DNA from: a virus
Direction: 5' to 3' (one strand)
IMG/VR virus record: IMGVR_UViG_3300047471_000117
Span: 1 to 34,114 of that record
DNA: 34,114 bases
The notes beneath the pieces were generated by a model. It had not been told where the DNA came from, made no database searches, and saw nothing but the letters and a program-made list of their open reading frames with translations. Positions 2,558 through 17,243 of this stretch are shown here, piece after piece. Positions within the stretch are counted from its first letter, which is position 1. The number at the start of each line of letters is the position of its first letter. The position numbers and the translations under genes are program-made.

Positions 2558-3616
2558 CTAGGCCCCCGACAGATCCTCATAGGCTTGAAGGACAGCATCG
2601 CGGGCGGTTTTTGCACGGCCTCCCGGTGGTTGCGCACCCTCAAGAGGCGATCCGTTGACAGAGGCGCGCGTGGCCAACTTGGCCTTCTGCACCTGTGCAG
2701 CATTCGCCTTCTCGGTGGCTTCGCGTTGTGTCTCGAGGAGATGAGCGCGGATGGCCGGGTTGGCCCACGTAGCCTGTTCGTATGCCTCTTCCAGGGACTT
2801 GGCGGCCCCGGCCTGGATCAACTGGCCCATATGAAAGCGGACATCGTTGAAAAAAGGCCGTTTTGGATCGGCTGCGAACTGACTGATCGTGGATTCTAGC
2901 TGCTGGTTCTGCTGTTGCTCGGCCTGCGCCTGGAAAGGCTGGAGGCGTTGCTCAACGAGCTGCGCGACCAAAGATTGAATGTCCTGTGGCTGCTGCGTTT
3001 GGCCGCCCTGAGGCTGGCCAGAGAACGCAGTGCGGGGGTCAATCCCTTTCGAGCGAAGAATATGTTCCGCCAATGCAACTGGATTGTCAACCGACAACCG
3101 GGCGAACTGCATCATCTGGCGCATTGCTTCGGGCACAGAACCAGCCTGATTGACCAGAAATTCCCGATTGACCTCAAACATCTCCTTGAGTGGCAACAGA
3201 TCCTGAGTTGCCGCCACGCGCGTTTGTTCATGCTTAACGATCTCCTCCTGCACGGCCGCCGGAAGCTTGTCCCATCGGACCTTGGCCAGCCCGGACCATT
3301 CCTGGGGCGCCGCGATCTTCTCCGGTGCCACCGGCGGCGCTGCACTTTGGGTCGTGGGGGAGGCAGCGCCCGGTTGTTCATCCGGTGCCGGTGGCGTCTT
3401 GAGCTTCAGCGTCGGCCGAGGCTCTTTTTCCTTGGGTTGCTTGGCAAAGCGTCCTGCTTCATCGCGGACACGATCCGCCGCCTGTTGTTCCGTTTCCTCC
3501 GGTACAGGAGTTGCCGAAGGTGAGCCCTCAGTCTCGACAATGGGAGCAGGAGCCGCCTCAGGCGTTTCAAGACTGTCATAGGCGGCATTCACCGTATCAA
3601 GGATGCTGTCAGCCAT
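2558..3616 (-). CDS. Putative scaffold protein
   Basis: This is a 352-residue, highly charged and largely helical protein with a long Pro/Ala/Glu-rich N-terminal region (residues about 15-105, probably disordered). The helical core runs from about 110 to 310 and includes a Gln-rich coiled-coil-like stretch (VEQRLQPFQAQAEQQQNQQ). It sits directly upstream of the coat gene, the standard place for a scaffold that guides procapsid assembly and then leaves. The start overlaps the previous gene by 8 nt and has a GGAGACGC ribosome-binding site. Composition and order carry the call; scaffolds diverge too fast for motif recognition. Confidence 0.75.
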   Translation of the reverse strand: MADSILDTVNAAYDSLETPEAAPAPIVETEGSPSATPVPEETEQQAADRVRDEAGRFAKQPKEKEPRPTLKLKTPPAPDEQPGAASPTTQSAAPPVAPEKIAAPQEWSGLAKVRWDKLPAAVQEEIVKHEQTRVAATQDLLPLKEMFEVNREFLVNQAGSVPEAMRQMMQFARLSVDNPVALAEHILRSKGIDPRTAFSGQPQGGQTQQPQDIQSLVAQLVEQRLQPFQAQAEQQQNQQLESTISQFAADPKRPFFNDVRFHMGQLIQAGAAKSLEEAYEQATWANPAIRAHLLETQREATEKANAAQVQKAKLATRASVNGSPLEGAQPPGGRAKTARDAVLQAYEDLSGA

Positions 3617-3983
3617 TGTTGCGTCTCCATGCGGTTCGTTGTTCTTCCGCCTTCACACGGTCGGCCATGCCCTGATAGTTCCCGTCAAACTGCTCATAGG
3701 CGGCCTTCACGGCCTGCCCATAATCAGGCTTCGGCGGCGCGCTGCCCCGCATGTCGTCGTTGCCGCTGATCTCGAGCCCATGGGCCTTCACGTCTGCCCG
3801 ATAGCGGCTTTTCGAGTCAAAATGCTTCTTGTCCTTGCGGTACATCGCCCGAAGGCCATTCACGCCCGCGCCCATGTCGTCGCTGATCAGGTGCGGGCCT
3901 TTCGGCTCCTCGAAATAGTTCGAGTTGGAGCGCACCTCGACAAGGCATTCCATGTCCTTGTCCCAGCGGAATGTCGTTCTCAT
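3609..3983 (-). CDS. Phage protein of unknown function in head module
   Basis: The product has 124 residues and begins MRTTFRWDKDMECLVEV. The middle contains NSNYFEEPKGPHLISDDM and a charged segment (YRKDKKHFDSKSRYRADVK). The C-terminal 40 residues are helical and polar. Proteins of this look are common just upstream of scaffold or coat genes in podovirus-like phages, but I cannot assign a function. ATGA-type overlaps at both ends place it firmly in the head operon: it starts inside the end of the glycosyltransferase gene and ends 8 nt inside the scaffold gene. Confidence 0.7.
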   Translation of the reverse strand: MRTTFRWDKDMECLVEVRSNSNYFEEPKGPHLISDDMGAGVNGLRAMYRKDKKHFDSKSRYRADVKAHGLEISGNDDMRGSAPPKPDYGQAVKAAYEQFDGNYQGMADRVKAEEQRTAWRRNNG

Positions 3984-4786
3984 CGCAGCCCCATCATCTG
4001 TTCGGCCCGCGCCTTGGCCTTCAGGTATTCGACTGTCGGCGGGAACTTGTCGCCCTGGTTAGCCTCGATATTGTCCGCTTCCCGATAGAACGCCGCGCTG
4101 ACATCGCAGCGGTTGTTGTCATCCAGCGGTGCCGGCGGCCAGCCCAGAGCCTTGGCAATGCGGACCGCCTGGGCCTGCCGCTTGCCCTTGCTCCAGGTAT
4201 AGAAATCGCTCCAGAAGCGCAGATCTCTCATGCGATGCGTCGCCACCGCCTGATCGTCCAGCCATGCTTCAACCGGAAGGATTGGAAGACCGGACGCGAA
4301 CATCCAGACCTGGAGAAGCCACATATCATCCCACCAGAACGGGAAATAATCGGTCCAGATCTGACCCGATGCCTTGCGCCATTTCTCGCTCACGATGGCA
4401 TAGGTTGCCGGCCGAACCGCGAGCGTGCGCCACCACCACACACCATCCGGCCTGACTGTCCAGGCATCGGCAATCGCATCGTCCCAGTGAGGGGTCAGCA
4501 CCACCACGTCATCGCAGAGACAGACATAGGCATCGGCCGGATTCTCATCGATCAGCCGGTTCATCATCACGCCCAAGGACGGCTGGCGAACCATGCAACG
4601 TGGCGCAATCCGGCAATCATAGAGCTTCTGCAGGTAGCCCATTGTCACGGTTTCAGGATCGTCCGAATCGCAGCCGATCACATACCTGATCTCATGCCTG
4701 CCCGATTCCAACCCGCGAATAGTGTCGAGCATGGTTTTCAGCCGGAAGGCACGGCCGCGGCTCGGGATTAGGACCGAGAGTTTCAA
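3980..4786 (-). CDS. GT2-like glycosyltransferase in the head module
   Basis: This 268-residue protein starts MKLSVLIPSRGRAFRL, the classic first strand and loop of a GT-A (family 2-like) glycosyltransferase. A second strand ends in an acidic motif, CDSDDPE (about 39-45), and a third ends in CLCDDVVVL. These are candidate DXD-type sites that bind the metal and nucleotide-sugar. Further on it is Trp-rich (FPFWWDDMWLLQVW), which could form the acceptor site. No membrane segment is visible, so it should act in the cytoplasm. It lies between virion genes rather than in the sugar cassette at 11-17.7 kb, so it may glycosylate a virion protein or be an inserted accessory gene. The sugar and acceptor are unknown. 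Confidence 0.75.
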   Translation of the reverse strand: MKLSVLIPSRGRAFRLKTMLDTIRGLESGRHEIRYVIGCDSDDPETVTMGYLQKLYDCRIAPRCMVRQPSLGVMMNRLIDENPADAYVCLCDDVVVLTPHWDDAIADAWTVRPDGVWWWRTLAVRPATYAIVSEKWRKASGQIWTDYFPFWWDDMWLLQVWMFASGLPILPVEAWLDDQAVATHRMRDLRFWSDFYTWSKGKRQAQAVRIAKALGWPPAPLDDNNRCDVSAAFYREADNIEANQGDKFPPTVEYLKAKARAEQMMGLR

Positions 4787-5004
4787 TCGGCTGCCTTGAT
4801 GTTTGTTACGTTGGACTGGGAACCTTCCAGCTCGGCAATGCGCGCCTCCATGGCGGCAATCCTTGCATCTCGCGCCACAAGCTCATTGATCAGGTCGGCA
4901 ACATTCGCCGTCAGTTCCTGCACCCGGCTCATCAGATAGATACCCGACGATTTCGGATACATTATCGTCGGCGTTGGTGCGTTCTGCAGTTGCTCGTTGG
5001 CCAT
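4783..5004 (-). CDS. Small coiled-coil phage protein
   Basis: The product has 73 residues. The ATG at 5004 is chosen because AAAGGGAA lies at the right distance; an upstream in-frame extension would run into the fibre-like gene. The first 25 residues are polar (MANEQLQNAPTPTIMYP). The rest forms an uninterrupted heptad-like helix (VQELTANVADLINELVARD and RIAAMEARIAELEG), so an oligomer is likely. It overlaps the glycosyltransferase gene by 4 nt (ATGA) and follows the fibre-like gene by 10 nt. It could be a trimerisation or assembly partner of that fibre, but no function can be assigned. Confidence 0.7.
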   Translation of the reverse strand: MANEQLQNAPTPTIMYPKSSGIYLMSRVQELTANVADLINELVARDARIAAMEARIAELEGSQSNVTNIKAAD

Positions 5005-5014
5005 GTCGTTCCCT

Positions 5015-6175
5015 TTAGGCTGCAGTGGTGAAGTTGGTCCAGGTTCCAGCGGCGGAAACCTTGACATACATGCGGGTCGCCGTGCTTGAACCAGATGTAT
5101 TGATGTAAAGACATCCCTGCGTGGCTGCGATGGTAGGAGCCACGCTGCCAAGTGCTCCCCAGATCACGCCGAAACTCGCCGTGCTGCTGAATTGCAGGGC
5201 GAAGTTTGCGCCCGTCGCGGAAGCTGCCACGCCGTTCTGGGTGGTCAGGATGCCTGTCGCCGCCGCCGATACCAGCGTCACATTGCCGGTCAGGCTGGGC
5301 GCGGCACTCAGGACCATCGAACCTGTTCCGGTGACAGTGCTATTCAAGGTCACGCCGCCGTAGACCATCGCAGAAGAGAAGGTCGCCAATCCTGAATGCG
5401 TCATGGCAGCTACTGACGCCGTTCCGGTAAGCGCCGGACTGGCAGACAGGACCATGCTGCCAGTTCCGGTGACAGTGCTGGCAAGCGTCACGGCGCCATA
5501 GGTCAGAGTTCCTGTCGCTACAAGACTGGAAAGGCTAGGATTCGTGCCGCCAACTAGAGAACCGGAACCAGTGACCGTTGAGGCGAAAGTCACAGTTCCA
5601 TAGGTAAGAGTACCAGTGAGGACCGCAGAAGAGGCTAGAATTATGCCCGCGATGGCCGTACTAGAACCGAGAACTGCCAAAGAACCTGCGGCCGTTCGCG
5701 TAAGTCCAACATCAACCACCGAGGCCGATGATTTGAAACCAAGCACAGCCGCCGAAGACAGACCGAGCCCGCCAAAAGCGCCATTCGCTCCCAATGTCGC
5801 GCCACTAGGAGAATAGATGTCGTTCAGGGTGCGGAAAATCGTGAGCGCAACGCTGCCTTCTGGCGTACCGAAATTGATCGTTTGCGATGCAAAAGCACTG
5901 ATCAGCAGATTGACCGCAGAATTGCCCTGCAGGGTCGTAAGAGTGAGTTGCCCGGCGTTTACGCTGCTGTAGGTGACCGCTCCATCAGTTTCCCCCACCG
6001 TGCCGCCATTGTCATATAGCAGTCGCGTGGTCGTGCCGCCCGTGATGGTGCTGGTATTGATTGTAATTCCCGTGCCGCCGCCGCTGATCACCTTGACCGG
6101 CATCGCGTTGGCAGAAGACAGAACAGCCCCGCCAAGTATCGGCGTTACTGGATTGAGAAGATCGGTTGTTGGCAT
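5015..6175 (-). CDS. Repeat-containing fibre-like structural protein
   Basis: This 386-residue protein consists almost wholly of Gly, Ala, Ser, Thr and Val, with few charged residues, as is usual for extended beta-structured phage fibres. Residues about 187-300 hold three related units, two of which begin TGTLTYG and all of which contain (A/N)STVTG(S/T)GS. The last 30 residues (GCLYINTSGSSTATRMYVKV followed by GTWTNF) resemble the C-terminal cap seen in many phage appendage proteins. A GAGG ribosome-binding site precedes the ATG. Because it sits between portal and scaffold genes rather than with the tail genes, it may be a head fibre. That role is inference. Confidence 0.7.
   Translation of the reverse strand: MPTTDLLNPVTPILGGAVLSSANAMPVKVISGGGTGITINTSTITGGTTTRLLYDNGGTVGETDGAVTYSSVNAGQLTLTTLQGNSAVNLLISAFASQTINFGTPEGSVALTIFRTLNDIYSPSGATLGANGAFGGLGLSSAAVLGFKSSASVVDVGLTRTAAGSLAVLGSSTAIAGIILASSAVLTGTLTYGTVTFASTVTGSGSLVGGTNPSLSSLVATGTLTYGAVTLASTVTGTGSMVLSASPALTGTASVAAMTHSGLATFSSAMVYGGVTLNSTVTGTGSMVLSAAPSLTGNVTLVSAAATGILTTQNGVAASATGANFALQFSSTASFGVIWGALGSVAPTIAATQGCLYINTSGSSTATRMYVKVSAAGTWTNFTTAA
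5276..5617 (-). repeat. Threefold internal repeat in the fibre-like gene
   Basis: Codons 187-300 of the fibre-like gene encode three related units of about 34-43 residues. Unit 1 starts TGTLTYGTVTFASTVTGSGS, unit 2 starts TGTLTYGAVTLASTVTGTGS, and unit 3 has VYGGVTLNSTVTGTGS. The second and third also share MVLSA(S/A)P(A/S)LTG. The nucleotide sequence is partly conserved too, which suggests fairly recent duplication. Such repeats usually lengthen the shaft of a fibre and can change in copy number by recombination. Confidence 0.7.
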
Positions 6176-6182
6176 GGCTACC

Positions 6183-6377
6183 TCAGGGGAGCGTGATTGG
6201 AATGGGATTGGTGTCGCTTACCAGGGCACCGTTGATAAGCCATGTCACCGGAGCCAACAGTGCCGTTGAAACCGGGGCGCTGGTATCGGCCGTCGAATTG
6301 CATGGCAGAGGGTTGGCATCGCTCACCGGAGCACCATTGAACATCAGTGTCTGGGGATTGCAGATCGTCTCGCTCAT
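6183..6377 (-). CDS. Small two-repeat protein between portal and fibre-like genes
   Basis: The product has 64 residues. It overlaps the portal gene stop by 4 nt and ends 7 nt before the fibre-like gene. Two halves resemble each other: MFNGAPVSDANPLPC near residue 12 and LINGALVSDTNPIPITL at the end. This points to an internal duplication of a short beta-hairpin-like unit. No family is recognised. Tight coupling to the portal and fibre-like genes suggests a small virion or assembly protein. Confidence 0.6.
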   Translation of the reverse strand: MSETICNPQTLMFNGAPVSDANPLPCNSTADTSAPVSTALLAPVTWLINGALVSDTNPIPITLP

Positions 6378-8488
6378 TGCGTTGGTCCTTGCGTTCGCTT
6401 GGCTGCATCGGCCTTGGCGTCCGTCAGCGCGATGTCGGCCGCCACCTTATGCATGTTGGCGTGATGATCGACCACGCTGTTCACGACATCCAGTTGCGCC
6501 TTCTGCCCTTCGGCCTGCGCTTTTATCTGGGCAGTCTGCTGATCTACCTGCGACTCCTGGATTGACGCCTGGGCCTTGGCGACCTCGGCCTGGGCCTTGG
6601 CCTGCTCGCCCTGCATCTGCGGATTGGGGGCCGGCGGCTGGTCGGCTTTCTTCTCCATCTTCTCGACCGCTTCCTCGATCACGCCCTCGAGCGAATCGCC
6701 CATCTTGAACAGCCGTGCTGCTGAAATCAGCATTTCACCGGCAAGGTCGGCAAGATCGGGAGCGGCCGGCAGGATCTGCGCCCATGCCGCGCAGTATTGC
6801 GTCACCGCAGTAAGGAAGGCTTCGGCCTTCTGCTGCTGCTGGGTCTGGTCGGCCTCGATGGTCGAATCCGTCTCCACGTCGATGATGAAGCCTCTGAGTT
6901 TCTCGTCGCGCAGCAGGCTCATCACCATTTCCCAGGTCGGTTCCTTCAGCATCTCCAGCATGTCCTCATCAGGTTGCGGGATGCCCGGCGGCTGCGGCAT
7001 CGCCACCGGCATGCCCTGTTGGGCCTGCTGCTGCGCTTGCTGCTGGGCCTGTCCGAACTGCTGCCAGGCCTGCTGGGCCTGCATAAGCATCTGAGCCTGC
7101 TGCTGGGTCAGCAATGGAACCCCGGACATCTTCTGGATAACCGGCAATTCAAAATGCTGACCGATGATGCTGCTCATATGCAGCAGGATCTGCCGGATGT
7201 ACCGTTGCACATCCCTCTGGCGCTCGCGTGTCCGCACATCCGAGAACTGGCTCTTGAGCTTCTGGGCGCCCAGCGTCTCGTTGGGATCGGTCTGGCCACG
7301 CTTGATGTCCGAGATGCCCGTGACCTCGTACATCGCCTGGATGGCCTTGTCGCGGCTCGTATAGCACCACTCCAGAACCTTCGCGATCATATCGACCGGG
7401 AAGTAGGCTATCAGGTTGTTGGCTCCCCCGCGTTCTCCCAGCATTGCCCAGTTGGGAATGGGGATCAGGTCGGCATCGTTGGCGCTGTCCATCGCCTGCT
7501 TGATCGACTCCATGTCGCCCGGATAGAGCCCACGCACCCGGAGGCTTCTGGTCAGCACGTAGATACGCTGCGTCAGCAGGTCGATCTCGTCCACCTGGTC
7601 CTGGTACTGGTCAAGGTCGGGAACCGGGATGGTCGAGTCCGTCGCCGTCGTGGAAAACAGCGGACGCGGAATAGGAAAGAAGTCCTCGAAATTTACCGGC
7701 GGGTCATAGATGCCCAAAGGCCCATGGGCATAGCCCGTCGAGATGTGGATCACCTTCTTCTGCTTTGAGTCCCAGATGCACCATACCGTTGCCTTGGACA
7801 TGCTGTCGTCAGCGTCCTTGGTCGCCTTGTGGTCCAGCACGATGGCCGTCGCTACCTTATTGCCATAAGCCTTCCTCACTTCAGCGCGAGTGAGATAACT
7901 CACATAACCCCACCACCACACTTCCTGCCAGTACCGCGCGACGTTGGTAAGCTGGTCCTTCCAATGGACATACCTTAGCCGCGCTTCCTGCCAGCCGACC
8001 TGATCACCCTCGACCTGAGGCACGTACTCCACCATCGAGCAGGCATATCCCGGCAGCAGCAGGTTCTCGATGTCCTGGTTCAGCACATGGTCGAAATCCT
8101 GCATATCGAGTGTATTTGCAAGGACCCGCTCGAGCACGATCGCCGCCCATCTTCCCACAGGGTCCTTGTCCTTGTTCCTTCGCGTCACGTTTGGCTTGGG
8201 AGTCATGGCATACAGGATGGGCTTCTGCGTCTGCACGTTGGCCCATACGAAGTTCATGCGCTTCTGACCGACTGCAATCGTCGGTGCGCTAGAGCTGATC
8301 TCCTGTTTGCGGTTCTTGTAGCGGCGCACGATCTGCTCGCCGCGCTTCCTCCATTGCTTGACCTTCTTCTCGCTGAACTCGATCTGGGCCAGCCAGAACG
8401 AGGCAAGCTGCTCCGGGCTTTGATCCAGTTCGTCCGTCTTGCCCGGAACCGAGGCCGGGACAATGGATGTGGCAGTCGTGTCAGCCAT
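6374..8488 (-). CDS. Portal protein
   Basis: This 704-residue protein is close to the size of P22-type portals, which form the dodecameric channel at the head vertex for DNA entry and exit. The N-terminal half shows typical portal features: early charged helices (WRKRGEQIVRRYKN), a YGNKVATAIV segment and a long helix region (DLDQYQDQVDEIDLLTQRIY). A Gln-rich stretch lies near residues 465-500. The C-terminal 100 residues are a long Ala/Gln/Glu/Lys helix (AKAQAEVAKAQASIQESQ), like the barrel of P22-like portals. Position after terminase and before scaffold and coat supports the call. The start overlaps the GIY-YIG gene by 8 nt. Confidence 0.88.
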   Translation of the reverse strand: MADTTATSIVPASVPGKTDELDQSPEQLASFWLAQIEFSEKKVKQWRKRGEQIVRRYKNRKQEISSSAPTIAVGQKRMNFVWANVQTQKPILYAMTPKPNVTRRNKDKDPVGRWAAIVLERVLANTLDMQDFDHVLNQDIENLLLPGYACSMVEYVPQVEGDQVGWQEARLRYVHWKDQLTNVARYWQEVWWWGYVSYLTRAEVRKAYGNKVATAIVLDHKATKDADDSMSKATVWCIWDSKQKKVIHISTGYAHGPLGIYDPPVNFEDFFPIPRPLFSTTATDSTIPVPDLDQYQDQVDEIDLLTQRIYVLTRSLRVRGLYPGDMESIKQAMDSANDADLIPIPNWAMLGERGGANNLIAYFPVDMIAKVLEWCYTSRDKAIQAMYEVTGISDIKRGQTDPNETLGAQKLKSQFSDVRTRERQRDVQRYIRQILLHMSSIIGQHFELPVIQKMSGVPLLTQQQAQMLMQAQQAWQQFGQAQQQAQQQAQQGMPVAMPQPPGIPQPDEDMLEMLKEPTWEMVMSLLRDEKLRGFIIDVETDSTIEADQTQQQQKAEAFLTAVTQYCAAWAQILPAAPDLADLAGEMLISAARLFKMGDSLEGVIEEAVEKMEKKADQPPAPNPQMQGEQAKAQAEVAKAQASIQESQVDQQTAQIKAQAEGQKAQLDVVNSVVDHHANMHKVAADIALTDAKADAAKRTQGPTQ

Positions 8489-8849
8489 CCGCCCCTACTG
8501 TCTCGGCCAGGAATTCGCCCGACATATTATTACTTTCGCTCGGTGGCGCAAGGTCATAATGTTGCGCCATCGCCCGAGTGCAGGCTGCGATGGTTCGGTT
8601 CATAAGGCCATCATGCAGCGCAATCATCGCCGTCTCATATGCGCGAGCCTCAATCTCCGTCGCGTAATGAGCCAGGGGATATAAAACGCAATGTTTTCCA
8701 AGAACTTCCAGAGCTTGCGACTTGTCATAAGCCGCCGAATCTCGGTGATTGTGTGATTGCGCCCGCTGCGCCGGATCGATGGTAATTCCGATATAGAATG
8801 GGTGGTCTTCGTCCCCCTCCGGGGCAATCGCATAGACAGTCCAAGTCAT
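8481..8849 (-). CDS. GIY-YIG-like nuclease-domain protein
   Basis: The 122-residue product fits the compact GIY-YIG nuclease fold: VYAI at 5-8 stands for the GIY half, FYIGIT at 18-23 for the YIG half, and Arg29 in DPAQRAQSH and Glu72 in YETAMI fall where the catalytic Arg and Glu are expected. There is no separate DNA-binding domain. GIY-YIG enzymes nick or cut DNA and include homing endonucleases, UvrC and SLX1. It lies between large terminase and portal with 4-8 nt overlaps, so it is part of the packaging operon and not a free-standing homing insert. It may process packaging substrates or branched DNA. Activity is inferred from motifs only. Confidence 0.65.
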   Translation of the reverse strand: MTWTVYAIAPEGDEDHPFYIGITIDPAQRAQSHNHRDSAAYDKSQALEVLGKHCVLYPLAHYATEIEARAYETAMIALHDGLMNRTIAACTRAMAQHYDLAPPSESNNMSGEFLAETVGADG

Positions 8850-10309
8850 CCCCAGTTCCTCGCCCGCTGATGGTCGCGCCAGATGTCATCCACCGTAGGT
8901 GCTCCCCCCGCATGAGCCCCGCCGATCGTCATTCCGGGGAACACCGGCGCGGGCTTGGGCTGGTTGTCGGCTACCCACGGCCTCGACATGCAGGCATATC
9001 TGCATTCATCCGGGGCGTGGTCCTCTGCCGCCGTATCCACATCCTCCGGTCGGTTCACGTCGTGCTGGAGCGCCGGGAGCGTGCGGATAAGGTCTTTGCA
9101 GGTTTCGAAGACGTAGAGCATGGGGCGTCCGTCTTCTCCCACGAGACGTTGCCGAACTTGGTCCCACCCTCCCATTGCTCCCAGTCTGCCAACGCGCGCG
9201 TTGTCGGCCTTCCTGAAGGCTTTAACACCGAGACGCTCCCAGATCGAAGGGCCGCCATCACTTGAGAAAGCTGCCGGATCCAAGACCCCATAGGTGATCT
9301 CCTCCCCTGTTTCACGTGAAACAATGCCATGCCCTACCTCGTTCGCCGGCATGTGCAGGCCAACGTTGGGCTCATTGGGCTTCATGCCGTACCATTCACG
9401 ATATCTGATGATCGCACCGCGCGGGAACTGCTCAAGCGTGCCGTCCGATATCGCCCACCAACCTACCGAGAAGGGCTTGGCAGAGCCCCAATCCATCGAT
9501 CGGAAGCGCGTCCAGTCCTTCGGTAACGTTACGGGCCGAACCACGTGCTTCTGCGTATCCCATTCGGGAAAGAAGGCTCCCGCAATGACACTCCAGTCAC
9601 CTTCAAGCCAAGCCCGGACAAGCTCTGCGTTACCGCTGAGATGGAGATTGGCGACATACTCGGGGCCAAGGTAGCGATTATCGTCAAGACGGCTGGGGAT
9701 GTAGACCCTGTCGCGTTTGACTCCAGTGCCTGTAAACGGGTTCTTAAACTCACTGGTGATGATCTCCCATCCAAGCGGTGCAGGATCGATGTAACGCGCC
9801 TTAACCCACTGGTGCCCAGGCCCGCCAGGGTTGCCCGTTGCTCTGAAGCCGCACGGCACACCAGCGCCCGAACGCAGCGTCGCCATCAGCTTCATTATGG
9901 GCACAGGGCTGGGGAAGTTCCCTATTTCTTCAATGTAGACGCGGCTGTAGCTGTGGCCCTGGTAGCCGTCCGCGTCTGCATCCCGCTCGAGGTATGCGAA
10001 CCTCAGTCTTGCTCCGTTGGGCCAGCGCCAGAGCTTATCCTGTTCGTGGTACTTGGCTCCGAGAGGCCGGAAGATCTGCTTGGATCGCTCAATCGTTTCA
10101 GTGAGTTGGACGAGCGTGCGACGGACCATAAGTCCGATAGCGTGCTCACCGTAAAGATCAGCATGACTAGCCCACTCACCCAGAGCTGCATCAGTCTTTC
10201 CTCCACCGCGGGCTCCTCCAAAGAAGATCTCGAACACAGGGCATCTGACAAACTGCCACTGCGGGCCTGGCTGTGGCTCCCAGCCTATGCGGATGGGCCT
10301 GCCGTCCAT
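8846..10309 (-). CDS. Terminase large subunit
   Basis: This is the ATP-driven packaging motor and nuclease. With the start at 10309 it has 487 residues. Walker A is GGARGGGKT at 31-39 and Walker B with catalytic Glu is RVYIEEIGN near 123-131. The coupling-motif region is FRATGNPGG. The C-terminal RNase H-like nuclease has its expected acidic residues in RSMDWGSAKPF, TYGVLDPAAFS and DTAAEDHAPDE. The chosen ATG forms a TGATG overlap with the upstream gene; an in-frame start at 10339 would add 10 residues. It heads the packaging module just before the GIY-YIG gene and portal. Confidence 0.93.
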   Translation of the reverse strand: MDGRPIRIGWEPQPGPQWQFVRCPVFEIFFGGARGGGKTDAALGEWASHADLYGEHAIGLMVRRTLVQLTETIERSKQIFRPLGAKYHEQDKLWRWPNGARLRFAYLERDADADGYQGHSYSRVYIEEIGNFPSPVPIMKLMATLRSGAGVPCGFRATGNPGGPGHQWVKARYIDPAPLGWEIITSEFKNPFTGTGVKRDRVYIPSRLDDNRYLGPEYVANLHLSGNAELVRAWLEGDWSVIAGAFFPEWDTQKHVVRPVTLPKDWTRFRSMDWGSAKPFSVGWWAISDGTLEQFPRGAIIRYREWYGMKPNEPNVGLHMPANEVGHGIVSRETGEEITYGVLDPAAFSSDGGPSIWERLGVKAFRKADNARVGRLGAMGGWDQVRQRLVGEDGRPMLYVFETCKDLIRTLPALQHDVNRPEDVDTAAEDHAPDECRYACMSRPWVADNQPKPAPVFPGMTIGGAHAGGAPTVDDIWRDHQRARNWG

Positions 10310-10608
10310 CAGTGAGGCTTGGGCAGCGAGGCGCGCCACTCCTCGGCAGTCTGCGCGGGCTCGGGGGCTCTGATAACAGTGCGCTCGTCCGTTACGGCCA
10401 CGTCAAGTGTTTGGGCTGGCTTGCCCTCAAGCCGGTCAGCAATCTCCTTGATGGCAGCGATGTCACCCGATAGGCCGGCATTGACGAGGCTTTCGGCCAA
10501 GGCTCGCAGCCGCGGCTTGCCTTTCACGGTGTCCATAACAGCGAGGCGCAATGCTTCGCGAAAGGGTTTCTCGCTCCAAGGGCCTGCTGGTCTGTGTGGG
10601 CGTGCCAT
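10309..10608 (-). CDS. Putative terminase small subunit / DUF5681-like protein
   Basis: The product has 99 residues, begins MARPHRPAGPWSEKPFREAL and contains GDIAAIKEIADRLEGKPAQ, a pattern seen in many phage and prophage proteins encoded directly ahead of large terminase. The position, size and helical content suggest a small-terminase role in recognising phage DNA, but no clear helix-turn-helix is visible. It is the first gene of the packaging operon. No Shine-Dalgarno sequence precedes the ATG; instead a TACAAT hexamer ends 7 nt upstream, so its mRNA may be leaderless. Confidence 0.65.
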   Translation of the reverse strand: MARPHRPAGPWSEKPFREALRLAVMDTVKGKPRLRALAESLVNAGLSGDIAAIKEIADRLEGKPAQTLDVAVTDERTVIRAPEPAQTAEEWRASLPKPH

Positions 10609-11024: not shown

Positions 11025-12293
11025 TTACATGCTTTCAACCAAGATGGGTTCGGGCTGGCTCATCATGCTGATCTCGGCCTGCACCGTCGCGCAGATTTCA
11101 TCCACTGCGCCCTTCCAGTCATGCGGCGCAGGCTGGCGAACCAGCGTCATCGAAGGATACCATGGCGTCGTCGGTATCATTCCAGGATAAGGCCAGCCAC
11201 CCCTGCAACTGAGAAGCCCGATGCAATCCAGGCCCATCGCGCCGGCAAGGTGCAACGGGGCCGTGTCTACGCTCACGATCAGGTCCATTTCCTGCATGAA
11301 GAGCGCAAGATCATTAAAGTCCATGCTCTTGGCTGCAAGGTCATAGATCAGGTATTCGGCGCCTAATCGCTCGATCTCGCCCGTCCCGCCCGTCTGCAGG
11401 CTGTAAAGCGTCACGCCCGGTATATCTGCCAAGGGCAACAGCTGCTCGAGCGGCACCGACTTCTGCATGCCATGAACACCCGCCCCCGGCTGGGATGTGT
11501 CTATAATCCCTGACTTTGACCGCCAGACCAAACCGATCTTCAGTCTGGTGTCGTCGTCCATAGGACAGTCAAACTTGCCCAGCGGGCTGATATATGGCTT
11601 GTCGAATGTCATTTCGCTTATCGAAAGACGGTTCGGCAGGCTCATAATGGGGAGGTAATAGTCCACATCCTTGGGAAAGGGCTCGTTGGTATTAAACACC
11701 GGGCAATCGAAGCTGGCCGCCATCAGTTTCAGCAGCACGCTCGGCACGCCCAATGAACAGGAACCTTTCGGCATGTGGTTGAGCCAGCGGCTATAGGCGA
11801 TCGCATCGCCATATCCCTGTTCGTGATGGATGGCCACGCGCTTGCCCTCCAGGGGTTCGCCCATCCACATCGGGACTGGAGGATTGCCCCAGCGTGTCAT
11901 TTCCAGTCTGGCCTCGCGGAGCTCGAAGCCTTCCTTCCATTTCCGGGCACCCAGCATCGCCTGGCCCCGGCAGTCACGGGCATAGGCCGTCGTGCATAAT
12001 CTCGGCGTAAAATAGGTCAGCGCCTTTTCGGGCAATCCCATGTCAAGATAGAGACAACCGTAAATAAACTGCGCCCGGTCGAACATCCCGTTACGGCAGG
12101 CATAGTTCAACTCGACCAGGGCCTCATCGAATTCCCAGATTCTTCGCAGGTTGTCCGCCAGATTGGCCCGCAGATCATGGCGATTGGGGTCAAGTTCGAG
12201 TGCCTTGCGGAAATTGTGGATGGCTCCCGTGAACTGCGCTTTCTCGTGGCAGTTGGCGCCTATCAAGGCCCATTGATCAGTCTTTAATTGCAT
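11025..12293 (-). CDS. TPR-containing GT9-like glycosyltransferase (heptosyltransferase-like)
   Basis: The product has 422 residues. Residues about 1-110 form tetratricopeptide-like helical repeats (GAIHNFRKALELDPNRHDLR, LPEKALTYFTPRL). The rest is a GT-B glycosyltransferase: KRVAIHHEQGYGDAIAYSRW near 151-170 is an N-domain loop. DLIVSVDTAPLHLAGAMG (337-354) is the nucleotide-sugar-binding signature of GT9 enzymes, the family of ADP-heptose:LPS heptosyltransferases. TPR-GT9 fusions also include protein glycosyltransferases. With HldE-like kinase and adenylyltransferase genes upstream in the same operon, ADP-heptose is the likely donor. The acceptor may be LPS or a protein. The start overlaps the previous gene by 17 nt. 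Confidence 0.8.
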   Translation of the reverse strand: MQLKTDQWALIGANCHEKAQFTGAIHNFRKALELDPNRHDLRANLADNLRRIWEFDEALVELNYACRNGMFDRAQFIYGCLYLDMGLPEKALTYFTPRLCTTAYARDCRGQAMLGARKWKEGFELREARLEMTRWGNPPVPMWMGEPLEGKRVAIHHEQGYGDAIAYSRWLNHMPKGSCSLGVPSVLLKLMAASFDCPVFNTNEPFPKDVDYYLPIMSLPNRLSISEMTFDKPYISPLGKFDCPMDDDTRLKIGLVWRSKSGIIDTSQPGAGVHGMQKSVPLEQLLPLADIPGVTLYSLQTGGTGEIERLGAEYLIYDLAAKSMDFNDLALFMQEMDLIVSVDTAPLHLAGAMGLDCIGLLSCRGGWPYPGMIPTTPWYPSMTLVRQPAPHDWKGAVDEICATVQAEISMMSQPEPILVESM

Positions 12294-12477
12294 CTATTTC
12301 CCCCGCCAATAGGGCATGTTCATTGTATGGATTGATAGGCCCCGCATCACGTGCGCGCCGCAATAAATCGATGGCATGGAGAACAGTATCAATGGCCGTC
12401 CATTCTAAGGGACCTAAGCCAACATGATCCCGATTTCTAATCATTTTCATGATCTCGGTTGCTTCTTTCAATTGCAT
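12277..12477 (-). CDS. Small helical protein in the sugar cassette
   Basis: The product has 66 residues and begins MQLKEATEIMKMIRNRDHVG. It is mostly helical and polar, with a hydrophobic helix around TAIDTVLHAIDLLRRARDAG. The start overlaps the GT-A-like gene by 10 nt and the end overlaps the TPR-GT9 gene by 17 nt. Both this protein and the TPR-GT9 protein start MQLK, from nearly identical nucleotides. That could be a copied translation-initiation segment or chance. No function is known; it may assist the adjacent glycosyltransferase. Confidence 0.6.
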   Translation of the reverse strand: MQLKEATEIMKMIRNRDHVGLGPLEWTAIDTVLHAIDLLRRARDAGPINPYNEHALLAGEIDAIKD

Positions 12478-13208
12478 AGCTCTGCCAGTTCTGGAAAGTG
12501 GTTGAGACGCAGGAAGTCAGCATAAACGCCCATATGCGCATGGGTGAGAAAGTCGATGCCATCTGGCCATAGCTCGGCCAACTCGCCCGGTTTGGTCAGC
12601 CCCGCATCCCTGTGACCGCGTAACGGTAGCATCTCAAGATCATCGCCAATGATGTTCCAAAGCCGCTTTTCGCCTTCAGGAACCACACTGCCCTTCCAGT
12701 TGTACTTGCCGATGAAATCGGTTTTCCAGATGTATTCGACATCGAGGAACAGAAGGCCAGTCTCCGGAAACTTGCCGTGGTTGACCAATGGCCCGCAGGC
12801 GCATGGCTTGGTCATGCGATCGAAGATGCCCTGCACGGGCAGGGCAAACAGCAGATCCATCTCGATATAGGCGAACTTGTCGTATCCGCTGGCAATGGCA
12901 ATCTCGAGCATCTTGATGAAGGCTCGGTCGCTGCCCGAACGCTGCAGCACGCCATCATGGAAGGGATGACCTAAGGCATCGCGAAATCTGATGATGGTTG
13001 ATTCCTTGATCGATGGAACATGGTCATCATTGAGTAGCCTTTGCACATCCCAACCATCCGTATGAAGCGCAATCGGGCTGGCGCTGTCTATAATCAGGTA
13101 ATCTCCCGAATCCCCATCAAGTTCCTGGCGCAATTCCCACCATATCTGCAGCAATGTCTGCTCGTCGGGCGTTCGCAGATGGGTCTGGCAGGAAATCAGC
13201 GTGCGCAT
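12468..13208 (-). CDS. Putative GT-A-like glycosyltransferase
   Basis: The product has 246 residues and begins MRTLISCQTHLRTPDEQTLL. It has a Rossmann-like start, then YLIIDSASPIALH (about 37-49) and KFAYIEMDLLFALPV (about 115). The latter resembles the DXD-containing strand of GT-A enzymes, where the acidic pair binds metal and nucleotide-sugar. ETGLLFLDVEYIW follows, similar to the segment after the DXD in small capsular or LPS glycosyltransferases. No membrane helix is seen. It lies between a sugar O-methyltransferase and the TPR-GT9 gene with very short overlaps. The assignment to GT-A rests on pattern, not on an exact family. Confidence 0.5.
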   Translation of the reverse strand: MRTLISCQTHLRTPDEQTLLQIWWELRQELDGDSGDYLIIDSASPIALHTDGWDVQRLLNDDHVPSIKESTIIRFRDALGHPFHDGVLQRSGSDRAFIKMLEIAIASGYDKFAYIEMDLLFALPVQGIFDRMTKPCACGPLVNHGKFPETGLLFLDVEYIWKTDFIGKYNWKGSVVPEGEKRLWNIIGDDLEMLPLRGHRDAGLTKPGELAELWPDGIDFLTHAHMGVYADFLRLNHFPELAELCN

Positions 13209-14122
13209 TATTTGGGATCTTCCTTGGCATACTTCGCGCGCATCTCATCAACTCCATCCGGCAAATCGCGAAAGCTCTTCCCGAAGATTGCTTCGTTGAT
13301 CGGATATTCAAGGCTGAGGCGCACCAGCAATTCGCGCGATGGCGGCATCAGCGGGTCGGTCTGCCCCGCTCCCGTCTCGTCGATCAATATCTCGCCCGGC
13401 ATAACGACCGAACCTGTGCGGTTGTGGCTATAAAAATAGCTGCAGGTTTCTTTGATCAGTGACAGGTAATCGACCACGGTTTCCGGCAGCATCTCGCCCA
13501 TACTGCAGGTATTGATCGCCATGTCGAAGCTATAGCCCATCAGGTCCTTCCACAGCCGCGCCGGGACAAAGTGGAAGTCTGCCGACGTGCCAAAGTCGGC
13601 TGCAGTGTGGCACCATTTGAAAGTGCGATCCGGGAAATGCGTTTTAAGGTAGACATAGCTGCAGAACAGCGAGCCCGGCAGATCGAGGATGGTGTATTGC
13701 CTCTGCATCTTGCTGTTGAGAATGCGCGCCAGGCCGCCAAATCCTGCGCCGATCTCAAGGATGGCCATTGGTTTTACCGTGTCGATGCGCCCGGCATAGT
13801 AGGTATGGAGTAGCAGTTGGGTGGAGAGCCGCTTGCCATCGCGCATCACGATGCCGCTCGGTGTGGCGTAGGGCGATTCCTCGACCGGAACATCTTTGAG
13901 AATGGCCAGCCAGTTATCGATGGTTTTGAGTTGATCTCCGTCACTGGCCGGATGAGGCGCGGTGAAGCAATCCACGCTGGTCAGCCAGTCAATAAATGCC
14001 GGTCCATCGCTGAATCGGCTGCGAGCTTCGGCTATGCCGTTCCCATTGTTGGTCCATAGCTCGGATTTGGCCGTGTCGTCCGGCGTTGCTTCCAACAGCT
14101 TGAGAGCTTCAGCGTAGATCAT
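13208..14122 (-). CDS. Putative sugar O-methyltransferase
   Basis: The product has 304 residues. The S-adenosylmethionine-binding motif I is ILEIGAGFGGLARIL (121-135), and a second acidic strand, YTILDLPGSLFCSYVYL, follows where motif II is expected. FDMAINTCSMGEMLPETVV then matches motif IV of this family and lies before a C-terminal half with SYFYSHNRTG. The overall layout resembles the putative sugar O-methyltransferases found in capsule and LPS clusters. It overlaps the adenylyltransferase gene by 4 nt (ATGA) and the GT-A-like gene by 1 nt. It probably methylates a hydroxyl on the sugar made or transferred by its neighbours. Confidence 0.7.
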   Translation of the reverse strand: MIYAEALKLLEATPDDTAKSELWTNNGNGIAEARSRFSDGPAFIDWLTSVDCFTAPHPASDGDQLKTIDNWLAILKDVPVEESPYATPSGIVMRDGKRLSTQLLLHTYYAGRIDTVKPMAILEIGAGFGGLARILNSKMQRQYTILDLPGSLFCSYVYLKTHFPDRTFKWCHTAADFGTSADFHFVPARLWKDLMGYSFDMAINTCSMGEMLPETVVDYLSLIKETCSYFYSHNRTGSVVMPGEILIDETGAGQTDPLMPPSRELLVRLSLEYPINEAIFGKSFRDLPDGVDEMRAKYAKEDPK

Positions 14123-14502
14123 GCCCGCTTCCTGATTTCTTCGGTGGTCGAGTAGCCGGGCAGCTTCGGAACGAGAAAGCGGCGCGGAACAAGATGCCAG
14201 CCAAGCGGCAGCCCTCCCTCGTCCCCGCGAATCAGCACATCTGGGCGCAGTCGTAGAATAAGCTCGATGGGCGTATCTTCCTCAAACTCGATCACTACAT
14301 CGCAATAGGGGCGAAGGGCTTCGCGACGAAGCGAGAGGCCCTCAAAATGATGGCTGACGCCCTTCAACTTCTTAATGGCTGCATCTGAATTGATGCCTAC
14401 CACCAATGTGTCGCATTGCTTGCGCGCTTCAGTCAGCAAGTGAAGGTGTCCCGCATGCAGCAATTGGAAGCATCCGTTCGCTAGCCCCACAATCTTTCTC
14501 AT
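14119..14502 (-). CDS. HldE C-domain-like heptose-1-phosphate adenylyltransferase
   Basis: The product has 127 residues and is a nucleotidyltransferase with the HxGH signature HAGH at 16-19 in GCFQLLHAGHLHLL. It matches what I know of the C-terminal domain of E. coli HldE: VVGINSDAAIKKLKG (about 34-48), FEEDTP (73-78), RPDVLIRGDE (86-95) and GYSTTEEIRK near the end. HldE-C transfers AMP from ATP to heptose-1-phosphate, giving ADP-heptose. The start at 14502 has GAGG six bases upstream and overlaps the kinase gene by 74 nt in another frame. Related cytidylyltransferases share HxGH, but the NSD and FEEDTP motifs favour HldE. Confidence 0.82.
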   Translation of the reverse strand: MRKIVGLANGCFQLLHAGHLHLLTEARKQCDTLVVGINSDAAIKKLKGVSHHFEGLSLRREALRPYCDVVIEFEEDTPIELILRLRPDVLIRGDEGGLPLGWHLVPRRFLVPKLPGYSTTEEIRKRA

Positions 14503-15307
14503 AAGCCGCCTCCAGTTCCTCGATCGTGCATGTAGCTGTACCAAAACGTCCAACAACAATTCCTGCCGCCGCATTGGCCAGCCGCGCCGCGCTCTCCAGG
14601 TCGAAGCCCACTGCTATTGCTGCCGAGAGAACTGCAACCACGGTGTCGCCCGCGCCGGTTACATCCACTGGGCCGGTGTTGGTGGCAGCGATGTGAATTT
14701 CCTCATTGCTCGGAGGCAGGATGCGCATTCCGGCCGCGCCTTGCGTTATCACCACTATTGCTGTGTCAGGTTCATTGGGCGTTGCCTGCCATTCGCGCTC
14801 GTTTGGTGTGATGACATAGGCACCTTCATACTTGCTCCAGTCATCGCCCTTAGGATCCACCACCACCGTGACGCGCTGCTCCTTCGCCCATTTGATAAGG
14901 CGCTGGCAAAGGCTCGGCGTGCAGACGCCCTTGGCGTAGTCGGAGATGATCAGGACATCGACATCTATCTCAGATGCGATGGACCGCACGATATAATCTT
15001 CCTCGGCCTGCGAGATCGGCGTGCAATCCTCCAGATCACTACGGAAAATTTGCTGATTATTCACAACATAGCGCGTCTTGCGGGGAGCATTTTTGGTGTC
15101 AAAGTCGCCCGGCAGGCAGCCCAAAGCCATGAGATTGGCAATCACATTGCCCGCCCCGCCTGCGCGTTCCTCCCGCCACTCCTCCACAAATACCGGCACC
15201 GGAGCCTCAGGCGATATGCGATCAACGCGCCCATGCACCCAGACATCGACCATGGCATCACCGACCACGACAATGCGGGCTTTGGACAGGTCAGAGATTG
15301 AAGGCAT
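14429..15307 (-). CDS. HldE N-domain-like heptose-7-phosphate kinase
   Basis: This 292-residue PfkB/ribokinase-family protein has RIVVVGDAMVDVW at 11-23, RISPEAPVPVF at 30-40 and a GGAGN substrate loop near 50-54. ISDYAKGVCTP lies at 121-131, VVDPKGDDW near 149-157, and the catalytic DVTGAGDTV at 215-223. These follow the kinase half of E. coli HldE, which phosphorylates D-glycero-D-manno-heptose-7-phosphate at C1. About 30 residues present in E. coli HldE after the LGA motif (the VGLTGxDD region) are missing here. The start at 15307 overlaps the FkbM gene by 17 nt; an ATG at 15334 is less likely. It is encoded just before the adenylyltransferase, so the pair is a split HldE. Confidence 0.85.
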   Translation of the reverse strand: MPSISDLSKARIVVVGDAMVDVWVHGRVDRISPEAPVPVFVEEWREERAGGAGNVIANLMALGCLPGDFDTKNAPRKTRYVVNNQQIFRSDLEDCTPISQAEEDYIVRSIASEIDVDVLIISDYAKGVCTPSLCQRLIKWAKEQRVTVVVDPKGDDWSKYEGAYVITPNEREWQATPNEPDTAIVVITQGAAGMRILPPSNEEIHIAATNTGPVDVTGAGDTVVAVLSAAIAVGFDLESAARLANAAAGIVVGRFGTATCTIEELEAAYEKDCGASERMLPIAACGTPSLAD

Positions 15308-16028
15308 CCACGATCTCCCTGGCAAAGTCATCATAACCGCAGAGCATGCATGCCATCGCCGCCACCTGCTGTTGACGTTGGCTCATTTCCTGTTCGAGCG
15401 GGTCTTTGATGAACAGTGCATCGGCATGCAGTAGCCGCTCACGTCCCTTCCATGGCGTGCGGCTGCGGTAACTCATGTTGTCGAAGCCGAGGAAGGAGAA
15501 ATCGTATTGGCGCAGCAATCTTTCAACATCGCCAAACAGTCTTTGTTCTCTGTAAATCTTCGCGAATTCTACTTCGCAATAAATGGCTGCCGTGCGCTCA
15601 AGCAATGTTTCGTTTGCGCCTTCCAATATTTCGTATTCGGTTCCTTGCGTGTCGAGTTTGATAAACTCTCCATGCCCCGGAAAGTCTTGCAGAACGACAT
15701 CAAGCGTCTCGGTCTGAATTTCAGTCGATCCAATCTGCGCGAATTTCACCATGTTGTAGCGATCTATAAAAGCCTGATTGATCGGCCGCAGAGAATCGTT
15801 GGTCGGTGCTGCGCATCGATACAGCGTTGCCGAGCCTGTTTGATTAGATAAAGCAACATGCAGGCAAGAATCACCGACAGCAATGGCTGCCTCTTGATCA
15901 GCCTCGAAGCCTAGAATGTTGACGTAAGACTTGATCGGTTCCACCAGCGGATGCATGCCACCCCGCGCGCCGATGTCCACGAAGCCCAGCGGATGCTCGC
16001 TAAACCATTTCTTTGCAAGCTCGATCAT
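15291..16028 (-). CDS. FkbM-family methyltransferase
   Basis: The product has 245 residues. SAM-binding motif I is GFVDIGARGGMHPL (15-28) and the acidic end of strand 2 is LGFEADQEAAIAV. TLDVVLQDFPGHGEFIKLDT and GTEYEILEGANETLL form the FkbM core: the KLDTQGTE segment is diagnostic, being the usual K-D-E/Q-G stretch. FkbM enzymes methylate hydroxyls on sugars, lipids or polyketides and are frequent in surface-glycan clusters. It overlaps the upstream 77-residue gene by 4 nt and the kinase gene by 17 nt. The likely target is a sugar in the glycan built by the cassette. Confidence 0.82.
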   Translation of the reverse strand: MIELAKKWFSEHPLGFVDIGARGGMHPLVEPIKSYVNILGFEADQEAAIAVGDSCLHVALSNQTGSATLYRCAAPTNDSLRPINQAFIDRYNMVKFAQIGSTEIQTETLDVVLQDFPGHGEFIKLDTQGTEYEILEGANETLLERTAAIYCEVEFAKIYREQRLFGDVERLLRQYDFSFLGFDNMSYRSRTPWKGRERLLHADALFIKDPLEQEMSQRQQQVAAMACMLCGYDDFAREIVDAFNL

Positions 16029-16258
16029 GGCTTCTTCTCCGCCCGCAGCGCGGCCTTCGCTGTCTTCAGCGCCCGCTCGCGACGTTCCTGAGCAAACGAT
16101 TTGATGCGCTCAATGTCGTAGCCATATCGTTTATGCCATGACAGATCGCTCAACATTTCCCATGTTATGCGGCCGGGGCAAGTCTGACTTCCCGGCGGCC
16201 CCAGCCATGCTGGAGACTCTTCATAAATTGCTCTGGCCATGCGCTCTAGCTTGGTCAT
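16025..16258 (-). CDS. Small hypothetical protein between methyltransferases
   Basis: The product has 77 residues, with its ATG overlapping the TylF-like gene stop (ATGA). MTKLERMARAIYEESPAWLG at the start and a Lys/Arg/Ala-rich helical end (RRERALKTAKAALRAEKKP) suggest a small helical, basic protein. The N-terminal LERMARAIYE pattern with Trp and Gly-Pro following is common in short phage early proteins of unknown function. Nothing points to an enzyme. Confidence 0.6.
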   Translation of the reverse strand: MTKLERMARAIYEESPAWLGPPGSQTCPGRITWEMLSDLSWHKRYGYDIERIKSFAQERRERALKTAKAALRAEKKP

Positions 16259-16992
16259 GGCTTGACCACATAGGCACCGGGATTGCTCGACCATGTAAAG
16301 CGCCGCAGTTGTACTGTCTCAAAGAACTCATCTACCGCCTTGCTCTCGCCCTCCCATGGCGGGATACCATATTCGTCAAAGGCAACCACACCACCGGAGA
16401 CAACCAGCGGCCATAGGGCCTTCAATGCCGTCAGCGTCGGCTTGTACAGGTCGCAATCGAAATGCAGCAGCGAGATTCGCACGCCGGGATTTTCCCTCAC
16501 CCAGCGTGGCACCGTCTCGCAAATGTCGCCCTTCACCAGTTTGATGCGCGCCTTGTAGGGAATGAACCTGTCGGCATCGAATATATCTATAGCAGTGCAG
16601 ACGGCAGCCTCATTGCCCGTATAGCCGCCTGCAATCTTACCCACTCCCGCATCGCCCGTGCCATCCTCGGGCGCGAGCTCGCCAAGGCCCTCAAAGCTGT
16701 CGAAACCCCATATCCGACGCTGCCGGTCGCCCATGCAGCGGATTTCCAGGAAGTTCGCCCAGCTCATCAGGGAGATGCCGTGATAAACGCCCAGCTCTAC
16801 GATGTCGCCGGGCAAGTCCACGACTATGCGGAATAGTTCGTAATGTGCCAGGAACCGCTTGAGATGGACGCGGCGGGCGTAGATCGGGAAGGCTTGCAGA
16901 ATGTTTGACGGCGAGATGCCTTCAAGAGCGTCGTCAATCGCATTGTAAATCAGATTATCTTCGCGAAGTGGCGTGCGGCCATCGAAGCTCAT
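16255..16992 (-). CDS. TylF/MycF-like sugar O-methyltransferase
   Basis: This 245-residue protein is of the macrocin O-methyltransferase (TylF) type. GDIVELGVYHGISLMSWANF is motif I. GFDSFEGLGELAPEDGTGDA supplies the acidic residue for SAM ribose and the D-rich lid. KLVKGDICETVPRW and ISLLHFDCDLYKPT carry the metal-binding acidic residues, and SGGVVAFDEYGIPPW completes the metal site. The family methylates sugar hydroxyls with Mg2+. Overlaps of 4 nt on both sides put it in the same operon as the HldE-like genes. It probably acts on the same glycan or nucleotide-sugar as the FkbM protein. Confidence 0.83.
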   Translation of the reverse strand: MSFDGRTPLREDNLIYNAIDDALEGISPSNILQAFPIYARRVHLKRFLAHYELFRIVVDLPGDIVELGVYHGISLMSWANFLEIRCMGDRQRRIWGFDSFEGLGELAPEDGTGDAGVGKIAGGYTGNEAAVCTAIDIFDADRFIPYKARIKLVKGDICETVPRWVRENPGVRISLLHFDCDLYKPTLTALKALWPLVVSGGVVAFDEYGIPPWEGESKAVDEFFETVQLRRFTWSSNPGAYVVKP

Positions 16993-17243
16993 TGGAAATG
17001 CTCCGGTATGAGCTTGGACACCGGAAGCTCCTGCTTATGCGGACCAGTGACGCGGATGCAGTCATAGTTGATCTGATCCCATAGCCATTTGGCATGTTTT
17101 CGGGCTTGTTCTTCAGTCTCTGCGCTTGCCGCAACGGGCATCCAATGCATGGGCTCGCTGCCATGGGAGGCATGTATCGCGTATGAGATGAGCCAATACT
17201 CGCTCTCGCGTGTGCGCGCGTACTTCGTCGGCGTATCACTCAT
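16989..17243 (-). CDS. Small phage protein of unknown function
   Basis: The product has 84 residues and begins MSDTPTKYARTRESEYWLIS, then has an alpha/beta pattern (IHASHGSEPMHWMPVAASAE, followed by a helix ETEEQARKHAKWLWDQI). Short proteins of this kind occur in phage early regions, but I know no function. The ATG overlaps the dioxygenase stop and the stop overlaps the TylF-like start. A longer upstream extension would lie inside the dioxygenase gene, so this start is preferred. Confidence 0.6.
   Translation of the reverse strand: MSDTPTKYARTRESEYWLISYAIHASHGSEPMHWMPVAASAETEEQARKHAKWLWDQINYDCIRVTGPHKQELPVSKLIPEHFQ

Follow-up and report, generated by a model that had tools for sequence, protein, structure and literature searches.

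A GT-A-type glycosyltransferase gene in a phage virion gene cluster suggests virion glycosylation by exchangeable enzymes

The window, i.e., the whole analysed stretch of 34,114 bases that constitutes an IMG/VR virus record, carries a virion gene cluster on its minus strand in the order terminase, GIY-YIG gene, portal, p64, Ser/Thr-rich fibre, coiled coil, glycosyltransferase (GT), p124, probable scaffold, major head protein and virion structural protein. The terminase large subunit (8846-10339) was identified by PHROGs, the portal (6374-8488) matches phrog_12082 (E 1.6e-165), the major head protein (1556-2542) matches phrog_9953 (E 3.3e-96), and the virion structural protein (1038-1556) matches phrog_29386 and is a distant homolog of decor155, a small protein encoded next to related GTs. 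The probable scaffold (2558-3616, 352 aa) is assigned by position and composition and has no PHROG match. A GIY-YIG endonuclease-type gene lies at 8481-8849 between terminase and portal, and a pectate-lyase-like beta-helix protein, probably a tailspike, is encoded at 26905-28620. Among isolates with a related portal are phages of Bradyrhizobium, Rhizobium, Ruegeria, Stenotrophomonas, Myxococcus and Microcystis.

Four genes surround the GT gene on the same strand. A 64-aa protein (6183-6377), which is 44% identical in L030, is encoded beside a 386-aa fibre-like protein (5015-6175) that lacks Pfam and PHROG matches and is a candidate acceptor. Its Ser+Thr content of 29.5% is the highest among the 12 window proteins measured, and the four homologs from the window, L006, L007 and L030 range from 27.8 to 31.0%. 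This fibre gene is one gene away from the GT gene and hence not adjacent to it. The gene in between encodes a small coiled-coil protein of 73 aa (4783-5004; best start ATG at 5004, although translated from 5013 in the scripts and therefore labelled cc76), which is not Ser/Thr-rich (11.8%). Downstream of the GT gene, a 124-aa head-module protein is encoded at 3609-3983.

The GT gene itself (3980-4786) is an open reading frame of 268 codons with a TTG start. It shares four nucleotides with the upstream coiled-coil gene (4783-4786, TTGA) and four with the downstream 124-aa gene (3980-3983, ATGA). An initial sequence-only reading had placed a GT gene with 4-nt overlaps among head genes, between a coiled-coil gene and the scaffold region; the overlaps are present on both sides and the gene does sit in the virion cluster, with the 124-aa gene intervening before the probable scaffold. 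The frame is a real gene and no chance ORF, because homologs occur in 18 further virus contigs and Ka/Ks is low. Together with the window, these contigs encode 17 distinct proteins among 19. Ka/Ks is 0.087 between the window and L006, 0.224 between the window and L007, and 0.017, 0.100, 0.223 and 0.224 in four other pairs; the gene is thus under purifying selection in all six pairs (0.017-0.224).

The relatives are metagenome contigs throughout, many of them short. Three viral scans yielded the 18 contigs and one weak match in L034 (29% identity over 116 residues), which lies amid apparent sugar and methyltransferase genes and was excluded from the 19-contig counts because its site is a run of sugar-type genes; later scans added the relatives L059/L196 and L181. 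Among 50,697 phage records, neither the window GT (E limit 0.01) nor the L029 GT (E limit 0.1) had a match, and for the L032 GT the only matches in phage isolates were fragments of Streptomyces phage GTs with 30% identity (E 0.03). Two scans of bacterial genome contigs returned 67 and 31 hits to the patterns, and no GT relative was confirmed among them, within the limits set by the short peptide patterns used. A promoter and terminator scan was uninformative, as its counts were below the shuffled expectation.

An AlphaFold2 model of the GT, built with 15 aligned sequences, reached a pLDDT of 89.5 and a pTM of 0.87. Glycosyltransferases ranked first in a Foldseek search of the PDB (E 7.7e-9), and VIA-align placed heparosan synthase 2 at the top (Z 17.8, rmsd 3.0, 212 aligned residues), with WrtF at Z 17.5 and GalNAc-T2 at Z 16.8. 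Values of Z >= 8 were obtained for 908 of the 999 chains aligned, and the best 50 matches (Z 17.8 to 15.1) are entries that we take to be glycosyltransferases or polysaccharide synthases. The window protein is accordingly predicted by its model to adopt a GT-A fold. D40, D43, D92 and D93 are invariant across the 19 aligned GTs (17 distinct), with the acidic pair D92/D93 at the DXD position in every one, and D153/D154 are present in all 18 GTs that reach that far. The DXD-type metal site therefore looks intact at D92-D93 in sequence. In an HMM alignment the pair is matched to the DAD motif of dolichol-phosphate mannose synthase, in a match that is itself non-significant (E 0.3-0.46); the best hit of the profile search against the PDB had likewise a non-significant E of 0.3.

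The relation to named families is distant. No Pfam or NCBIfam family was assigned to the window GT, and the gathering cut-off of Glycos_transf_2 (PF00535) was not reached; the relative in L029 gives a sub-threshold match to that family (18.8 bits versus a cut-off of 23.3). Thus, the window GT shares with GT2/Glycos_transf_2 the predicted GT-A fold and the acidic pair at the DXD place, but not a Pfam match. In PHROGs, it weakly matches phrog_14945 'glycosyltransferase' (E 0.0022) over residues 2-159, i.e., in the N-terminal part only, with the helical C-terminal third outside, and the L032 GT matches the same group better (E 2.8e-8). The Kyte-Doolittle mean of the most hydrophobic 19-residue stretch is only 1.23 and gives no indication of a membrane anchor. 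Because the model, the structure matches, the invariant aspartates and the Ka/Ks values agree, the gene is predicted to encode a conserved GT-A protein and enzyme, and structure modelling thereby sustains the earlier proposal of a glycosyltransferase, whose DXD-type site looks intact.

In all 19 contigs, i.e., the window and its 18 relatives, a small gene lies directly upstream of the GT gene, and its type varies. A coiled-coil homolog precedes the GT in four contigs (window, L006, L007 and L030), a fibre89 gene in eight (L004, L005, L011, L012, L023, L024, L029 with two copies, and L033), a decor155 gene in six (L025-L028, L018 and L031) and a phrog_644 protein in one (L032). Portal or coat homologs are found near the GT gene in 17 of the 19; of the other two, L030 has it among fibre-like genes without family matches, and the surroundings in L032 are unclassified. 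Two head types carry the GT: one with the phrog_12082 portal and the phrog_9953 head protein (window, L028), and the P22 type, represented by L004 (P22_portal E 2.1e-177, P22_CoatProtein E 1.7e-44). In a FastTree tree, the GTs of the window, L006 and L007 cluster with the GTs from P22-type phages (support 0.75), whereas the GTs of decor155 phages form a separate clade (0.93), although the head proteins of these phages belong to the window's own families. Gene order thus places the GT within or beside the virion gene cluster, a feature shared with virion-glycosylating systems.

Decor155 matches phrog_29386 'virion structural protein' (E 1.1e-6). No family matches were obtained for the fibre89 proteins of L004, L029 and L063, and only weak ones for the coiled coil. 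Since decor155 and its window homolog are the only ones with a virion label in PHROGs, while the other upstream genes differ by lineage and mostly lack a family, a surface location of these other products is presumed; the particle place of fibre89 and of the coiled coil is deduced from gene order and fibre-like sequence. At L029 7324-8004, the fibre89 gene is doubled directly before the GT gene, and the two copies are 91% identical over 69 residues. A Ser/Thr segment, AVATTA-x-I-x-SS, is invariant in seven aligned GT-linked fibre89 copies (L004, L011, L023, L024, L029 and L033), and similar Thr-rich stretches are present also in fibre89 copies without a GT.

The position of the GT gene in a head module also bears on the idea that the enzyme glycosylates hypermodified phage DNA. 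Many kinds of DNA-modifying phage GTs exist (Pyle 2024, as cited in the accessible text of PMC12619734), and the window encodes C5 and N6/N4 DNA methylases. Matches to TET/JBP (PF12851) or thymidylate-synthase-type (PF00303) domains were, however, absent from the nine records searched, a negative that weighs little because the TET search was silent in the control genomes and the records may be fragments. With the gene placed among head genes, we consider a role in DNA glycosylation most improbable.

The GT is an accessory insert in the head module. L008/L009 have the order portal, p111 and scaffold with nothing inserted and no match to A3, the family profile of the window GT; a homolog of the window's 124-aa protein follows the portal directly, and the portals are 58-73% identical by segment. 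At decor155 loci where p189 directly follows, the GT is also absent. In L007, the order is portal, coiled coil, GT and p123, with the homologs of p64 and the fibre far off in a tail-type cluster (L054 4085-5432), and a run of p67, fibre, coiled coil and GT is embedded in fibre-like genes of L030. One virus seems to be the source of both L030/L053 and L008, because they stem from the same metagenome and nearly adjoin within the scaffold gene. The coiled coil is the tightest neighbour of the GT in the window, L006, L007 and L030, and a fibre is present in all four, even where it is not adjacent. Given the differing arrangements in L007, L030 and L008/L009, fibre, coiled coil and GT look like a loose mobile module. 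The notion that the Ser/Thr-rich fibre is the sole acceptor is weakened by L007, which keeps coiled coil and GT without an adjacent fibre. What had been suggested before about this fibre therefore holds in part: it is Ser/Thr-rich (29.5%) and a plausible acceptor, but not a constant neighbour, as L007 and other phages with different small genes before the GT demonstrate.

The genes that follow fibre89 were surveyed with A3 and with a second profile, A7, over six frames within 1.6 kb downstream. A scan for fibre89 gave 58 loci, 52 of which had room (at least 600 nt downstream). An A3 or A7 GT was detected at 29 of these 52 loci and not at 23, in a set with many near-duplicates, obtained with a query (A6) in which four rows came from GT-bearing contigs and further ones had been picked up next to GT-like genes, and with an A7 model seeded from ORFs chosen in the slot. 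Clustering of the whole set left a GT in 24 of 44 clusters at 90% identity, 17 of 31 at 75% and 2 of 5 at 60%; among loci not in hand before the scan, it was 19 of 39, corresponding to 16 of 33 clusters at 90% and 12 of 25 at 75%. Nine of the 29 GT-bearing loci had A3 only and 20 had A7, with L184 and L189 having both. GT matches outside the 1.6-kb stretch were seen only in L180 and, as an additional match, in L189. A7 proteins lie behind fibre89 at L063 4225-4899, L064 4284-4949 and L152 4219-4896, among others, and in L184 (4279-5280 onward) and L189 (4292-5143 onward) A7 is followed in tandem by a distant A3 behind one fibre89 gene. The typed fibre89 query found one weak partial match in phage isolates.

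The A7 family is GT-A according to its structural model (pLDDT 93.9), which is closest to A197 of STIV (Z 18.7, rmsd 2.1, 162 aligned residues, 24% identity) and second to the GT domain of LH3 (Z 16.9). Each A7 member was recovered at E 1.2e-35 or better with relatives above 50% identity left out, and the two members tested in PHROGs (L063 and L064) match phrog_1574 'unknown function'. Comparison of the A3 and A7 profiles revealed no detectable relation (probability 0.3%). A methyltransferase domain occurs also in the slot of L064 and L062 and, by eye, apparently in that of L195.

A third, putative enzyme type follows decor155. Among the best 80 of 107 decor155 homologs, 77 had room, and behind these 77 lay an MptE-like protein in 18 cases, A3 in six and neither in 53; the six A3 loci were already known, since their contigs form six of the seven rows of the decor155 query A4, and most of the 18 MptE-like loci have similar scores and are apparently close copies. 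A7 was not found behind these 77. The one MptE-like protein checked, that of L095, belongs to PF01973 (48.9 bits, cut-off 34.6). MptE/DUF115-like proteins are encoded directly behind decor155 in L088, L090-L101, L105-L107, L132 and L136, and the MptE-like gene is itself followed by one for a 275-aa fibre-like protein in L088 and L095. In the three stretches covered from isolates with a related portal (L050-L052), no GT is annotated between portal and capsid, and the A3, A7 and MptE-like profiles found nothing at E 0.01.

The same slots are therefore re-used by different glycosyltransferase-type genes. This re-use bears on the proposal that the window protein, although folded as GT-A, lacks catalytic activity and acts in head assembly as a structural element or chaperone, a view in whose favour its lack of a Pfam family and its site in an assembly cluster could be cited. 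Both acidic pairs are, however, kept in every GT that reaches them, relatives have the head module without a GT gene, and unrelated GT-type families occupy the slot in other phages, which argues for shared chemistry rather than shared shape; an idle fold is thus very unlikely. More broadly, tailed phages of uncultured hosts may possess a general 'glycosylation slot', in which interchangeable GTs of at least three families without detected kinship, sometimes accompanied by methyltransferases, stand directly downstream of genes whose products are small exposed virion proteins (fibre89, decor155 and the coiled-coil/fibre module). We offer this generalisation tentatively, as somewhat short of probable. 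If it holds, particle glycosylation would be a widespread and swappable trait and not a mycobacteriophage curiosity. Among the literature matches listed, covered by titles and the starts of abstracts and with most subscription journals outside the scope, no description of such a slot was found.

A separate sugar cassette lies on the same strand at about 11025-17749, just upstream of the terminase genes. Family searches identified a TPR protein with a GT9-like (heptosyltransferase-like) domain (11025-12293), an FkbM methyltransferase (15291-16028), a TylF-like O-methyltransferase (16255-16992) and a PhyH-like dioxygenase (17240-17749), and a NanM-type sugar O-methyltransferase is encoded at 13208-14122 (83.8 bits, cut-off 44). 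A 246-aa protein (12468-13208) is GT-A-like by eye only and has no family matches. At 14119-15334, HldE-like adenylyltransferase and kinase halves are encoded by two genes that overlap and share the cassette with the TPR-GT9 gene; the adenylyltransferase-like domain (14119-14574) scores 98.7 bits, under its cut-off of 181.5, and the heptose kinase-like domain (14429-15334) 257.6 bits, under its cut-off of 345. An ADP-heptose route to protein or LPS glycosylation via this cassette is possible, and functional ADP-heptose enzymes in viruses are reported in the accessible part of PMC11461863. The cassette is present in the window and L007 and in part in L006, L035 and L008, some of which are cut by contig ends; L008, apparently the same virus as L030, has two of its genes. 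The TPR-GT9 gene occurs in three of 11 GT-bearing records and is missing from eight, although the records may be fragments, so cassette and GT need not cooperate. A dependence of the GT on the cassette is unsupported by this count, and the GT seems independent of it. The previous suggestion of two glycosylation loci thus stands as far as a separate cassette exists, but joint action is unsupported.

The cassette could also be read in favour of a GT that modifies the host surface, i.e., LPS or capsule, late in infection, and thereby blocks superinfection or keeps progeny off debris. Its HldE-like and GT9-like genes are parts of an LPS-type pathway, and serotype-altering phage GTs are established (Markine-Goriaynoff 2004, as cited in the accessible text of PMC10955285 and PMC12619734). 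Against such a role stand the absence of the GT9 gene from those eight GT-bearing records, the lack of an indicated membrane anchor, the 4-nt overlaps with virion-cluster neighbours on both sides, which do not fit a separate moron, and the small gene that precedes the GT in every contig, with portal or coat genes near 17 of them. Modification of the host surface is therefore unlikely.

Virion glycosylation by a swappable GT is the reading that the sequence comparisons suggest as the best one, because varied sugar-transfer-type enzymes settle behind the same small particle genes across lineages; glycosylation of the neighbouring product, or of its complex, would best explain this re-use by different enzymes. 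The window GT is probably a soluble GT-A enzyme that is made with the head proteins and adds a nucleotide-derived sugar to an exposed virion protein, most likely the product of a gene just upstream. It would be produced jointly with the head proteins, would use a nucleotide sugar that the host most likely supplies, and would attach the sugar before or during assembly. The Ser/Thr-rich fibre (5015-6175) is a plausible acceptor in the window, with the coiled-coil protein (4783-5004) as an alternative acceptor or adaptor, and the resulting glycan may serve in shielding, adsorption or stability. If correct, this proposal names concrete enzyme/acceptor pairs for virion glycosylation beyond mycobacteriophages, in a two-gene layout that is simple to test, and provides a genomic rule to predict glycosylated phages. 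It would also give a role to a GT family without a clear relative found in sequenced phage isolates, and would prompt workers with phage particles to look for sugars on them.

Different known systems resemble parts of this arrangement. MptE-like/DUF115 proteins are presumably linked to the Maf-type flagellin glycosyltransferases, whose MptE-like (PF01973) counterpart fills the slot behind decor155; this Pfam family differs from anything matched by the window GT. In mycobacteriophages Che8 and Rita, glycans on capsid and tail proteins and phage-encoded GTs have been published (Freeman 2023, as cited in the accessible text of PMC11256854 and PMC12619734), and in the Mycobacterium phage Maravista the GTs are encoded close to the 3' genome end (PMC11256854). 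STIV has a glycosylated major capsid protein and encodes A197, a small single-domain viral GT-A (Larson 2006, as cited in the accessible text of PMC10551542), whose acceptor is unproven according to the same text; A197 resembles the slot family A7 (Z 18.7) and not A3, the family of the window. Thus, virion glycosylation as a kind of modification is known, while the gene family, the slot and the swapping of enzymes within it look new.
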